From Candidatus Desantisbacteria bacterium CG1_02_49_89 (lineage in GTDB: Bacteria > Desantisbacteria > UBA1551), in NCBI GenBank assembly GCA_001871075.1, contig MNUP01000028.1, forward strand, positions 1-47,550: DNA of 47,550 nt, written 5' to 3'. A program made the position numbers and the translations under genes. The notes under the pieces were generated by a model that saw nothing but the letters and a program-made list of their open reading frames with translations, was not told the origin of the DNA and did no database searches. Each line of letters opens with the position of its first letter. Positions within the stretch are counted from its first letter, which is position 1. Positions 5,329 to 44,586 of the stretch are shown here, piece after piece.

Positions 5329-5363
5329 GTTAAAGGTTGAAGGTTGAAAGTTAAAGGTTGAAG
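5329..5363. repeat. Heptamer array, GTTRAAR x5
   Basis: Five contiguous 7-bp units of GTTRAAR: GTTAAAG, GTTGAAG, GTTGAAA, then the first two again. Variation is confined to positions 4 and 7. It starts six bases after the lipoprotein stop codon and precedes the second copy of repeat A. Confidence 0.9.
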
Positions 5364-5377
5364 GCGTGAAACTGCTA

Positions 5378-7576: not shown

Positions 7577-7695
7577 GGCAGTCATGAGTTATGTGTCATG
7601 AGTCATGGGTGAGAGATTGAAAGTGAGAAAAGGAGGTGACCAATATGTGGAATAAGAAGAGCAGGAAGGAAAACAGAGGCGGGAGAGGAAGATAG
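7559..7695 (+). repeat. Micro-ORF cassette, copy 1
   Basis: The cassette opens with GGGGTCAGGTCTTTTTAA, continues with four heptamers (7581-7608, GTYATGN) and GAGATTGAAA, then a perfect Shine-Dalgarno and a 16-codon frame. The same order of parts recurs at 16179-16383, where the heptamers are interrupted by an inserted hairpin. Confidence 0.8.
7645..7695 (+). CDS. Conserved 16-residue basic micro-ORF, copy 1
   Basis: The peptide is MWNKKSRKENRGGRGR with a TAG stop. AAAAGGAGGTGA, complementary to the 16S 3' end, stands five bases before ATG. A second copy at 16333 encodes MGKKKSRKENRGGRGR. Between copies residues 4-16 are identical; two arginine codons differ synonymously (AGA/AGG) and the stop differs (TAG/TAA). 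That pattern argues for selection on the peptide. Nine of 16 residues are Lys or Arg, so it could bind RNA, act as a leader, or be toxic. Function is unknown, and I recognise no family. Confidence 0.5.
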   Translation: MWNKKSRKENRGGRGR

Positions 7696-17575: not shown

Positions 17576-17653
17576 ACGCAAGGCTCCCTCCTGACAAAAT
17601 TGGCGGGTCTTCGAAAAGCCTTGCCCTACGAAAGAATAAATCGGGGGCGGCTT

Positions 17654-17815
17654 GGTTTTTTCCTTGACCCCTGCTAATTTCTTCGAAATTAAGCTGCTGG
17701 GGTCTGCGTCTCTGGGTTCATAAGTGTGGTTTTTTCCTTGACCCCTGCTAATTTCTTCGAAATTAAGCTGCTGGGGTCTGCGTCTCTGGGTTCATAAGTG
17801 TGGTTTTTTCCTTGA
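17654..17815 (+). repeat. Two tandem 74-bp units plus partial third (family E)
   Basis: Units begin at 17654, 17728 and 17802, exactly 74 bp apart, and the first two are nearly identical. Each contains TTGACCCC, a TAATTTC-TTC-GAAATTA hairpin and GGGGTCTGCG. The third copy breaks off right after TTGAC, which becomes the -35 box at 17812. The single unit at 462-540 ends the same way. Confidence 0.9.
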
Positions 17816-17840
17816 CAAATGTCAAAAAATAACGTATAAT
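17812..17840 (+). promoter_or_regulatory. Full-consensus promoter giving a probably leaderless mRNA
   Basis: TTGACA (17812-17817), a 17-bp spacer, then TATAAT (17835-17840). Only eight bases separate the -10 box from the ATG at 17849, so transcription should begin at or within a base or two of the start codon. No Shine-Dalgarno sequence is possible. Confidence 0.8.
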
Positions 17841-19063: not shown

Positions 19064-19292
19064 GAATGAGCAAATAAGGGGAACCGCCCGCTCCGCGGCG
19101 GAGGTCTTCCACAGAGGGAGAGAAAAGGGGCATTGCTGCCCCTTCAAATGTTATATATAGGAATTTACGGTTTGTTCAGTCAATTGAGCAAATTGTAAAT
19201 AGGGGAATTGAGGGGGATTTTTAAACGACCCTGAAGGGCCTACTCCTAAGGCTCTAAAAATTAAAAGACGGTTCCAAGGTTCAAGAAAAACA
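19064..19292. repeat. Intergenic stretch with repeat fragments
   Basis: It contains a GGGGGATTT fragment of the TCCCCC hairpin family (about 19199-19222) and the 23-bp sequence 19227-19249 (GACCCTGAAGGGCCTACTCC and three more bases). That sequence recurs with one mismatch inside the GH116 coding sequence at 38268-38290. No clear promoter or strong ribosome binding site precedes the following gene. Confidence 0.6.
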
Positions 19293-26060: not shown

Positions 26061-26088
26061 GTGTAAGGTGTAACGTGTAAGGTGTAAG
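26061..26088. repeat. Heptamer array, GTGTAAS x4
   Basis: Four contiguous units of GTGTAAS in the order G, C, G, G at the last base. It begins six bases after the stop codon of the giant gene. A single unit, followed by GCATG, is also present near 108. Confidence 0.9.
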
Positions 26089-26202
26089 GCAAGATTAAGC
26101 AAAAATGTAGCGGTGCGATTTATCGCACATTTGTATTTCGCGCTTCTCCCCCCGGATTTGCTCCGCAAATCAAAACAGGGGGGACTTCGGCTACGCCCCG
26201 TA

Positions 26203-31100: not shown

Positions 31101-31106
31101 CCAAAA

Positions 31107-31226
31107 GTTGAACGTTGAAAGTTGAACGTTGAAAGTTACCCGCCCAATCGGATAGATCGGGCGAGGTCTCGCCCGCCGAAAGACGGGCGGAAAAAGGTTA
31201 AAGAGGGTAAAGGGGGTAAAAAGGTT
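31107..31226 (+). repeat. Composite repeat D, copy 2
   Basis: GTTGAAC and GTTGAAA alternate twice (31107-31134). GTTACCCGCC, a CGATC-type hairpin, GAGGTCTCGCCCGCCGAAAG and ACGGGCGG follow, then three 9-bp units (31200-31226). The core matches 30195-30251 closely, while the heptamers differ (GCTCAAA there). Confidence 0.88.
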
Positions 31227-36304: not shown

Positions 36305-38833
36305 TTACGAAAGGATTATTTGAAGAACTTCTTTTTTAAGGTTCAATGCTTTAGGGAAATGGATGAGAAGGACCTTGCCGCGCCTGATCAGCTCGCAGGG
36401 GACGGGTTTGTTGTTAACCAAGGCTAAAAGCGCGGTAAACCGCGCCGCTACATTACCCAGAGATAGGGTCTGCAGGGAAAGGGAGCCGTAAGCGACCTCA
36501 ACGCGGGCGGTCATTTTTTTACCGGCGCGTTTCTGCGAGAACAGGCCCCAGCCGGAATCAACGGAAAAGAAACAGGAGAAATTATCCGCGTTAACGCGGG
36601 GCGAGAAACTCATCATCAGGATGGGCGCCGAATAGTGGAATCCGGACAGCGCGAGCAGCGCAGCCCATGAAGCCATTGAACGGGCATAGTGGTTGCCGCA
36701 CTCCATCTCGTTCCAGGGATTCCTTTTCTCTCCGTCATACCTGTCCCGCAGGCCTTTGATGACCGCAAGTCCTTCCTTCACAAGCCCTTCGTATATCAGG
36801 TGGGTGCCGACCTGGTACTCGATGCCCCCGCCCCATATCTCGTCGCAGTAGGGGAAGGGGATCTTGGGCCTTTTGCCTTTAGGCCAGGTGCAGATGAGCA
36901 GGCCGCTTTCGGTGTTCAGGCCGTAAACCCGCATGAAATTCACGTGGTTTTTCAGGCTTTTCTTCCAGTTGTATTTAAAGATCGAAGACATTGCCTTCTT
37001 CACCTTTTTCTCTTCAAAAAGGTAACCCATGTCGTTTATGTGCGCGAACCACTGCCCGATCATCTGGTCGGAAAGGCAGCCTGTCTTGAACTGGTATTTC
37101 AAATCCGGGTTTTCAGGCGCTTTTTGAAAATAATATTCGCCGTTGAAAAGATTCTTATCCATCCACCTGCTCCCGCTTTCAAAGAGAGCGCGGTATTCGT
37201 CCGCCTTTTCGTCCTCGCCCAGATACCTGGCTATCTCCTCCGCGCTTCGCAGGGCTCCCATGTAAAAACTTCCCATCATCGTGTTGGGGCCGTGGAATTC
37301 TATGTCATACGTGTTGTGCTGGATGCCTTCCATAACCCCGTCCTTGTCAAGGTCCCACCAGTCCTCGTTTGTTTTATTCCAGGCGTATTCAAGGGCTTTT
37401 TTTGCAGCCGGCCACAGTGATTTGAGCCACTTATCATCCCCGCTGAGCTGCCAGTCACGGTACAGCTTCATCAGCCCGCCCATCTGCCCGTCTCCCGCGG
37501 CGTGGAAATCTCCCTTTCCGCTTCCGAGCGGAAGCTGTATGCGGAACTGCATCTTTCCGTTCTCGAACTGGTTGTATCTGTAGTCGGCAGAGCGCATGCT
37601 TCTTTCAAGGCCGGGGAACAGGAACGCGAGTGTCTGCGCGTAGTTCCACACATGGGTGCATGAGCCCTCGCAGCACCCGCAGTTGGTGCCGCACCCTTCA
37701 AACCCGTAGAAGGTGCCGTCCTCAAGCCGCAGGCAGGTCGGGGATTTCAGTATGGATGCCTGGCTTGACACCGCGTCCAGCACGTAGTCCGGCAGGCTTG
37801 ACCTGAACAGGGTGTCATGGAACAGCTTCGTCTCTTCATAAAGGCGCTTTTCGTTCTCAGCCACGTATTCCGCTGTGTCAAATGCATCCTTGAAAAGCGA
37901 CGCGTAGTAATTCTTCCATACAGGTTTATTTGGAGAGCCGTCCCAGTATTTCTCAAAGTTGGGGAAATGCCAGGTGATGTAGATTGGAAGATTGACAGAT
38001 TGAGAAGGTTCAAGATTAACTGATAAAACAATAGCCCCGGTGTCAGTCTGGTTGTCTGCCGAGGGTTCATATGTCCGGTCTTTTACGGCCCCGTGTTCCA
38101 CGAATTCATCCCAGAAGATCCTGGGGCTGTCAAACCAGCCTTCCCGCGTCCAGCAGGTCTGGAAGGAGACGTTTTTCCAGGGGGTTGTAAGAGCCATTGA
38201 GCCGAAATGCGGGTCGTTTTCCTTGTATTTCTTCGTGGTCATGAAAAGGCCTTTTAATGAATTTGATGACCCTGAAGGGTCTACTCCTAACTCCATAAAG
38301 GTATTCACGTTCTGGCCGTAAGAAGGGAACCCGGCAGCGTTAAAAAGGCTGGCAGCGAGCGCAGCGTTCACCTTCTTCCTTCCTTTATTTACAAGCGTGA
38401 AGCGGAATATGGCGCAGGGAATGCTGGAATCCTTCGCGTTCAGGGGTATGAAAGGGTTATACGCTTCCATAGAAACCTTTAAAGGTATTTCGCTGTCCCG
38501 GAAATCAATGTTCGCGAAAGGGTATTCGCCGCGGAAAACGCAGGAATCCATGTGCGGCAGGCCTGCGCCGTTCTCTCTTATGTAGCCGCTTGGGCCCTGG
38601 TACGGCGGGGCAGGAGGCGCTTGGAGTAGTTTAGCTATTGGCTCATGGCTCATGGCTCGACACCTTAAGATAAAAAAAGAAAACGGTAAAATACAACCCT
38701 TATTGGGCTTGTTGAATATTTCCCAGTCCTTAAGCTCGCCGTGCCCGCCAAGGGAAACGCTTCCCGTGCCTATGCCGCCCAGGGGGAAGGCGATCTCATT
38801 CAGGCGTCGGCCCGTGAATGTGAATCTATTCAT
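36305..38833 (-). CDS. GH116-family glycosidase (bile-acid beta-glucosidase type)
   Basis: 842 residues from the Met at 38833, chosen because GGAGG stands five bases upstream; the open frame extends to 38869. The N-terminal beta-sandwich starts EIAFPLGGIGTGSVSLGGHGELKDWEIFNKPNKG, diagnostic of GH116. The C-terminal alpha/alpha barrel holds the probable nucleophile E389 (CCEGSCTHVWNYAQ) and acid/base D510 (HNTYDIEFHGPN), by analogy with human GBA2 and bacterial GH116. It removes beta-linked glucose or xylose. No signal peptide, so cytoplasmic. Three AT-rich patches inside the gene (37981, 38268, 38640) look like intergenic repeats inserted in frame. Confidence 0.93.
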   Translation of the reverse strand: MNRFTFTGRRLNEIAFPLGGIGTGSVSLGGHGELKDWEIFNKPNKGCILPFSFFILRCRAMSHEPIAKLLQAPPAPPYQGPSGYIRENGAGLPHMDSCVFRGEYPFANIDFRDSEIPLKVSMEAYNPFIPLNAKDSSIPCAIFRFTLVNKGRKKVNAALAASLFNAAGFPSYGQNVNTFMELGVDPSGSSNSLKGLFMTTKKYKENDPHFGSMALTTPWKNVSFQTCWTREGWFDSPRIFWDEFVEHGAVKDRTYEPSADNQTDTGAIVLSVNLEPSQSVNLPIYITWHFPNFEKYWDGSPNKPVWKNYYASLFKDAFDTAEYVAENEKRLYEETKLFHDTLFRSSLPDYVLDAVSSQASILKSPTCLRLEDGTFYGFEGCGTNCGCCEGSCTHVWNYAQTLAFLFPGLERSMRSADYRYNQFENGKMQFRIQLPLGSGKGDFHAAGDGQMGGLMKLYRDWQLSGDDKWLKSLWPAAKKALEYAWNKTNEDWWDLDKDGVMEGIQHNTYDIEFHGPNTMMGSFYMGALRSAEEIARYLGEDEKADEYRALFESGSRWMDKNLFNGEYYFQKAPENPDLKYQFKTGCLSDQMIGQWFAHINDMGYLFEEKKVKKAMSSIFKYNWKKSLKNHVNFMRVYGLNTESGLLICTWPKGKRPKIPFPYCDEIWGGGIEYQVGTHLIYEGLVKEGLAVIKGLRDRYDGEKRNPWNEMECGNHYARSMASWAALLALSGFHYSAPILMMSFSPRVNADNFSCFFSVDSGWGLFSQKRAGKKMTARVEVAYGSLSLQTLSLGNVAARFTALLALVNNKPVPCELIRRGKVLLIHFPKALNLKKEVLQIILS
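37981..38020. repeat. Octamer array inside the GH116 gene
   Basis: Five 8-bp units starting AGATTG: AGATTGGA, AGATTGAC, AGATTGAG, then degenerate AAGGTTCA and AGATTAAC. The protein segment is VNLEPSQSVNLPI. Codons are AT-rich, unlike the surrounding GC-rich gene. Confidence 0.7.
38268..38290. repeat. Intergenic repeat fragment inside the GH116 gene
   Basis: 23 bp matching 19227-19249 with one mismatch. Translated on the minus strand it gives LGVDPSGS, a probable surface loop. Confidence 0.7.
38640..38660. repeat. Heptamer array inside the GH116 gene, GGCTCRW x3
   Basis: GGCTCAT twice, then GGCTCGA, 21 bp in total, encoding RAMSHEP on the minus strand. The length is a multiple of three, so the frame is preserved. 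The adjoining codons are AT-rich. Confidence 0.75.
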
Positions 38834-38853
38834 TGTGCCTCCATTTCGTGCTT

Positions 38854-38951
38854 CGTAACATCGTAACATCGTGCATCGTTAAATCCCCCTCTTTCCCCCT
38901 TTTTAAAGGGGGATGGCAGGGGGATTTCTTAATCAGGGCTGAAGCCCTGAG
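38854..38951. repeat. Octamers, TCCCCC hairpin and GGGCTGAAGCCC palindrome
   Basis: CGTAACAT occurs twice (38854-38869), then degenerate units. A TCCCCCT/AGGGGGA hairpin follows at about 38896-38914. GGGCTGAAGCCC leads into TGAGTTACG, whose TTA (38952-38954) is the reverse complement of the stop codon of the next minus-strand gene. Confidence 0.75.
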
Positions 38952-41005: not shown

Positions 41006-41106
41006 ATTACAGATTACAGATTATAGATCGGAAGAGTTAAATTTGAAATTTGCAATTTGCAATTTGAAATTTCTTTTACTGGCCACTGGACACTGGCCAC
41101 TGGTCA
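41006..41106. repeat. Three successive heptamer arrays
   Basis: 41006-41026 is ATTACAG twice, then ATTATAG. 41041-41068 is ATTTGAA, ATTTGCA twice, ATTTGAA. 41079-41106 has four units CTGGNCA with N = C, A, C, T. The last array ends two bases before the complement of the next gene's stop codon. Three different heptamers sit side by side, each with variation at one or two fixed positions. Confidence 0.92.
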
Positions 41107-41108
41107 CT

Positions 41109-44513: not shown

Positions 44514-44534
44514 TGCTCCTCCTTTTTTAAAACA

Positions 44535-44586
44535 GTCATGGGTCATGCGTCATGAGTCATGTGTAAAAAGCGTGTCAGCGTGTCAA
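44535..44586. repeat. Heptamer array GTCATGN x4 and octamers
   Basis: 44535-44562 has GTCATGN four times, with N running through G, C, A, T. 44571-44586 is CGTGTCAG then CGTGTCAA. The heptamer core is the same as in the micro-ORF cassettes (7581 and about 16201). Confidence 0.9.

Follow-up and report, generated by a model that had tools for sequence, protein, structure and literature searches.

The GH116 gene and its repeats

The window, which is the whole stretch of 47,550 nucleotides analysed here, is about 88% coding. On its minus strand, an ORF of 854 codons (36305-38869) encodes a GH116 protein (PF12215, DUF608), and the three repeats that an initial annotation had placed in one reading frame all lie within it (Table 1). 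Profile matches of the ORF were obtained for PF12215 (4.7e-59) and PF04685 (3.8e-47). The nearest solved relative, by sequence as well as by fold, is the exo-beta-D-arabinanase ExoMA2 (8ic6); the AlphaFold2 model has a mean pLDDT of 89.5 and a TM of 0.87 to that structure. D510 and E379 are invariant in 34 of 34 aligned proteins, and the statement that the catalytic motifs are intact is confirmed. The N-terminal and catalytic domains, the predicted fold and the catalytic-region residues together identify the product as a GH116 member. Because the homology begins near the internal ATG at 38833, a further exact octamer array close to the 5' end of the ORF (38853-38872) is probably noncoding and upstream of the gene.

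Table 1. Coordinates and strands of the features discussed (window positions unless a locus is named).
Feature	Position	Strand	Description
GH116 glycoside hydrolase gene	36305..38833	-	842 aa from the likely start ATG 38833; ORF reaches 38869; fold nearest ExoMA2 8ic6
In-frame 24-nt insertion TTAGGAGTAGACCCTTCAGGGTCA	38267..38290	-	LGVDPSGS, residues 182-189; from homologue alignment
REP core GGAGTAG-ACCC-TTCA-GGGT-C	38268..38287	-	GTAG foot, 5-bp stem, 4-nt loop
Other window copy of the GGAGTAG REP family	19227..19249	-	Intergenic, single REP, one G-T pair in stem
Weak octamer-like pattern	37981..38020	-	In conserved beta strands; ordinary coding sequence
Heptamer micro-tandem (RAMSHEP)	38639..38659	-	In a turn; length unchanged against homologues
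Sister REP family copy (TCAGGGCTGAAGCCCTGA then GTTAC)	38933..38950	+	In the gap that separates the GH116 gene from the next one
CCA-adding enzyme gene	L092:1160-2773	+	Insert of ~61 residues from about codon 87, absent from 30 homologues

A decaying pseudogene that gathers insertions is very unlikely here. A genome of the same order (G001) does keep just the C-terminal part of GH116 (contig C83, L027; about 190 aa, residues 672-853, 62% identity, with stops), which is likely a remnant. However, the gene of the window is intact over 842 codons, its catalytic-region residues are conserved, its GH116 model is confident, and its single insertion is in frame.

The octamer array turned out to be weak, with 73-81% matches, indels and a TRF score of 31-44. 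Its columns contain 0% gaps in 62 homologues, a homologue of 55% identity has nearly the same residues at the site, and the pattern spans two strands of the model (264-274 and 279-289). An insertion was therefore rejected, and the octamer is ordinary conserved coding sequence. The initial annotation had itself laid down that residues conserved in close homologues would speak against its reading, and on that rule (SVTLPAYLTWHFPNFQKYW vs SVNLPIYITWHFPNFEKYW in close homologues) the octamer drops out.

The heptamer is different in kind. The unit TGGCTCA forms an exact array of 2.9 copies at 38639-38658 and encodes RAMSHEP, as had been described. When the codons of the gene were shuffled 400 times, no exact array of period 6-10 and at least 20 bp arose; therefore the array is not simple chance. 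Although it is not chance, it is no demonstrated insertion either, since RAMSHEP aligns to equally long homologues without a gap (2-6% gaps, 62 homologues). The model places it in a variable turn (61-65), with strands 53-60 and 66-69 on either side. The heptamer is thus a real micro-tandem, and the alignment indicates variable rather than added sequence. All other exact arrays of period 7 that the window yielded lie between genes, as do the imperfect AGTCATG arrays at 7580 (7580-7607) and 44534 (44534-44561). These two belong to a set of mostly intergenic tandem arrays of 7-mers (some 8- or 9-mers) with differing units, the others being at 177-206, 5329-5364, 26061-26089, 31104-31137 and 41006-41108. 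An exact intergenic tandem duplication of 74 bp (2.2 copies, 100%) is also present at 17653-17816. The intergenic heptamer arrays resemble the heptanucleotide tandem repeats of cyanobacteria; this is a resemblance only, and it concerns the heptamer and not the palindromic repeat described below.

The initial annotation had joined the three repeats into one system of frame-preserving sequences that enter surface loops and sit in AT-rich patches. The heptamer is indeed a real micro-tandem in a turn, and the window holds related intergenic heptamer arrays (AGTCATG at 7580 and 44534). Against this, the comparison with the 62 homologues shows no added residues for the heptamer or the octamer, the latter falls within conserved strands and is already refuted as a member, and the units, lengths and structures of the three are unrelated. 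A single system is thus highly improbable. The octamer and the palindrome do have AT-rich surroundings (37-42% GC), whereas the heptamer does not (53% GC in 38610-38669), and of the three only the palindrome is an addition to a loop. As regards the 23-mer and what it broadly means, the earlier reading holds; its error was to join the octamer and the heptamer to the 23-mer. The case illustrates how, on a first pass, a genuine element can be lumped together with a conserved strand of ordinary sequence and a micro-tandem that has nothing to do with it.

A GTAG-tagged palindrome in the GH116 gene

The 23-bp segment at 38268-38290 had been reported as a copy of the intergenic sequence at 19227-19249. 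The two differ by one mismatch in 23, where 0.00 copies are expected in window shuffles at up to three mismatches. The encoded LGVDPSGS is an exact block of eight residues that is gapped in 95-100% of 62 homologues, the insertion being read from a comparison in which identity reaches about 60%. In the model, the block is a low-confidence turn (block pLDDT about 60) between strands 175-182 and 193-200. Therefore, the segment stood up to both the homologue alignment and the structure check. Its hairpin is weak when folded alone (-3.9 kcal/mol, z -1.33), and it is a single REP, not a REPIN.

The genome-wide counts were taken from pattern searches and retrieved stretches of a fragmented draft assembly (150 contigs, 93.5% complete). 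In the 2.48 Mb genome, an exact search yielded 50 occurrences of the pattern GGAGTAGNNNCTTYAGNNNC and 0 of the reversed pattern. A looser search gave 49 perfect copies followed by a sharp drop to noise, which suggests a recent spread of this homogeneous family. Among 59 genomes, matches were found in five including the source genome; the other four have one each, so that none of the 58 others, G001 included, exceeds one. The tag GGAGTAG precedes the stem in the 50 exact copies and in 0 cases of the control. Four main stem types were observed (ACCC/GGGT, GGGC/GCCC, GGCC/GGCC and AGCC/GGCT), and pairing is kept among them by two-sided changes: 95.7% of the cells are paired, 15 changes are two-sided, and the covariation score exceeds 500 of 500 shuffles and all slid controls. 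The palindrome is thus maintained by compensating changes, as in GTAG REPs. About 56 copies were counted, nine of them in genes and the others intergenic or in doubtful ORFs. The family is thus of high copy number and mainly intergenic, against a coding share of about 88% in the window, and stands at the low end of copy number for REPs.

Sixteen inverted neighbour pairs (REPINs) are formed among the 56 copies. The GTAG feet point outward in all of them, and 15 are spaced by 28-33 nt. Their 56-nt consensus, laid out as TTAGGAGTAG hairpin / CGTTATTTAACG / hairpin CTACTCCTAA, folds at -13.5 kcal/mol (z -3.95) into a three-hairpin junction with an outer stem of 10 bp and three hairpins. Inverted doublets of defined spacing with a larger fold are what is called a REPIN, and the anatomy of the GGAGTAG family is that of GTAG REPs and REPINs (PMC3733652, PMC3116915).

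It might be argued that the GH116 segment resembles a REP by convergence, being no more than a loop extension whose sequence is palindromic by chance, as loop length varies in the GH116 fold and nearby upstream columns are also of variable length among homologues. However, the segment matches the family exactly over 20 nt, foot, stem and loop included, and the reversed control gave 0 matches in the genome; it fills the homologue gap exactly; and eight further in-gene copies exist. The genome-wide count already disfavours convergence strongly, and we consider it extremely improbable. The segment 38267-38290 is very probably a single GTAG-tagged REP, one half of the 56-nt REPIN, which was inserted into the GH116 gene, presumably through RAYT-type copying. 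For the enzyme, the insertion is most likely close to neutral.

Copies in other genes and the likely mover

Nine in-frame copies were found in seven ORFs when 56 places were examined. The hosts are the GH116 gene, an FAD oxidase, NuoL, PtsI (at the C terminus), a CBM9/DUF5696 protein (two copies), an ORF of 646 aa (two copies) and the CCA-adding enzyme (a copy with one mismatch). The GH116 gene is the strongest in-gene example and the other genes are supporting but weaker ones. The FAD oxidase copy gives a net gain of four residues against 29 homologues, and the CBM9 protein exceeds a paralogue by about 10 residues. The insert of the CCA-adding enzyme is built of REP-like modules, namely the one-mismatch REP, an apparent long-loop hairpin variant recognised by eye and a CCCCGATGTAACATCGGGG hairpin. 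The NuoL copy was set aside as a clean insertion, because the loop varies in all relatives and the sister genome has a different, longer one. In the NuoL of G001 (L203), the loop starts with AACGAG and ends with CTCCACTCCT like the REP-bearing loop, with a different middle; it may be an earlier insertion at this position that has since decayed. The 646-aa ORF has no Pfam match and just weak similarity inside its own genome, and it is less secure as a host gene. ORFs at C100 (an N-terminal extension), C8, C119 and C135 are doubtful or over-extended as true hosts.

Frame 0 alone can be read across the entire REPIN on either strand without a stop, and its peptide, rich in Pro, Gly, Ser and Asn, would suit loops. 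It is used in six of seven genes; as it makes up two of the four stop-free choices, the preference (p about 0.06) is not claimed to be significant. In two genes, REPs in direct tandem, spaced by 27 and 30 nt, are translated into repeated peptides, NGPKGPTPG NEPKGSTPG (L086:1298-6745, minus strand) and NEPKGSTPGE NEPKGSTP (L094:3992-5929, plus strand). The 24-nt unit, the frame free of stops in both orientations and the turn-forming peptide (NEPKGSTP / LGVDPSGS) might mean that the family is tuned to enter genes, which we regard as quite unlikely. If it were true, the REP would be a portable linker of eight residues, able to multiply in tandem within a protein, and a transposable palindrome would repeatedly supply loop sequence.

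Ten Y1_Tnp ORFs and about eight RAYT-like genes are present in the genome. L043, L048 and L050 score above the cut-off of NF047646 (REP_Tyr_transpos), and L044-L047 score below it; judged by these profile matches, RAYTs of the right class are present. No GGAGTAG copy was found within 1.5 kb of any of the ten Y1_Tnp ORFs in this draft genome (93.5% complete), and so a REPtron, in which a RAYT is flanked by two inverted cognate REPs, was not observed for this family. Two of the RAYTs, L048 and L049, lie about 2 kb apart on contig C23 of the source genome (G000), embedded in arrays of sister REPs. The sister hairpins carry the tag GTAACTCA and have the stem-loop core CTTYAG in common with the GGAGTAG family. 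The stop codon of L049 is supplied by the GTAG of a hairpin.

RAYT-type Y1 transposases act on GTAG REPs as folded single strands (PMC8266576), and a GTAG foot, inverted pairs and RAYT genes form the combination associated with RAYT mobility (PMC2817692, PMC3116915, PMC8266576). A spread without a dedicated transposase, through recombination, slippage or template switching at hairpins, is rather unlikely. In its favour are the distance of the family from every Y1_Tnp ORF, the two genes with direct tandem copies at 27- and 30-nt spacing, as slippage would give, and the FAD oxidase, whose net gain of only four residues implies that some insertions came with a loss of native codons. The GTAG foot, the inverted-pair architecture and the right-class RAYT genes of the genome argue against it. 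By analogy with the known systems, RAYT mobility is the likeliest, though unproved, route. A RAYT-type HUH (Y1) transposase would have copied the REP while acting on folded single-stranded DNA, and the copy would have landed in the GH116 gene in frame. Three features may explain its survival there: a length of 24 nt, which is divisible by three; a reading frame that is free of stops in both orientations and gives a turn-forming peptide rich in Pro, Gly, Ser and Asn; and a site that would tolerate extra residues.

Relation to known palindromic repeats

GTAG-tagged REPs, including intragenic in-frame ones across many species, were reported in 2013, with the most in Opitutus terrae (Di Nocera 2013, PMC3733652). 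The present family has in common with them the GTAG foot, the short palindrome, the inverted dimers and the mostly intergenic location, and also the occurrence of some copies in frame inside genes, several per gene and in tandem groups. It differs in being another sequence family in another genome, in its minimal unit of 24 nt and eight residues with a 5-bp stem, and in its host genes, which are mostly metabolic here and not of DNA repair. Close to it are also the Haemophilus REP GTAGGGTGGGCTTTAGCCCACC and the Marinomonas REPMb (5-bp stem, 4-nt loop). The RAYT/TnpA-REP and REPIN systems (PMC2817692, PMC3116915, PMC8266576) share the GTAG with a CTTTAG-type hairpin, the inverted doublets and the RAYT genes in the genome, but the RAYTs here are surrounded by the sister family and not by the GGAGTAG family.

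The palindromic elements of Rickettsia, with which the repeats had first been compared, were published earlier than the intragenic GTAG REPs (Ogata 2000; reviewed in PMC2229807). The comparison is apt as an analogy, since palindromic repeats in frame in unrelated genes and tolerated by the proteins are described in both, and an in-frame insertion that homologues lack is seen in the GH116 gene (95-100% of 62), with weaker support in the other genes. However, the Rickettsia element described in PMC2229807 is 105-146 bp long, against a 24-nt unit and a 56-nt REPIN here, and the closer kin are the GTAG-tagged REPs already reported inside genes (PMC3733652), the source that also classes RPE-4 and RPE-6 as CGTC REPs. 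The REP family and its host are new and the unit is unusually small; intragenic in-frame GTAG REPs and the Rickettsia elements were known already. The small dispersed repeats that Elhai is said to have described in Nostoc in 2008 are reportedly 21-27 nt long and mobile and also enter genes.

The GH116 gene provides a clean case from an uncultured lineage, in which an enzyme has gained exactly eight residues from a minimal REP and 62 homologues serve as the empty-site control. With several further genes of the same genome and an enzyme that has a solved relative, the tolerance and the cost of palindrome insertion become testable.
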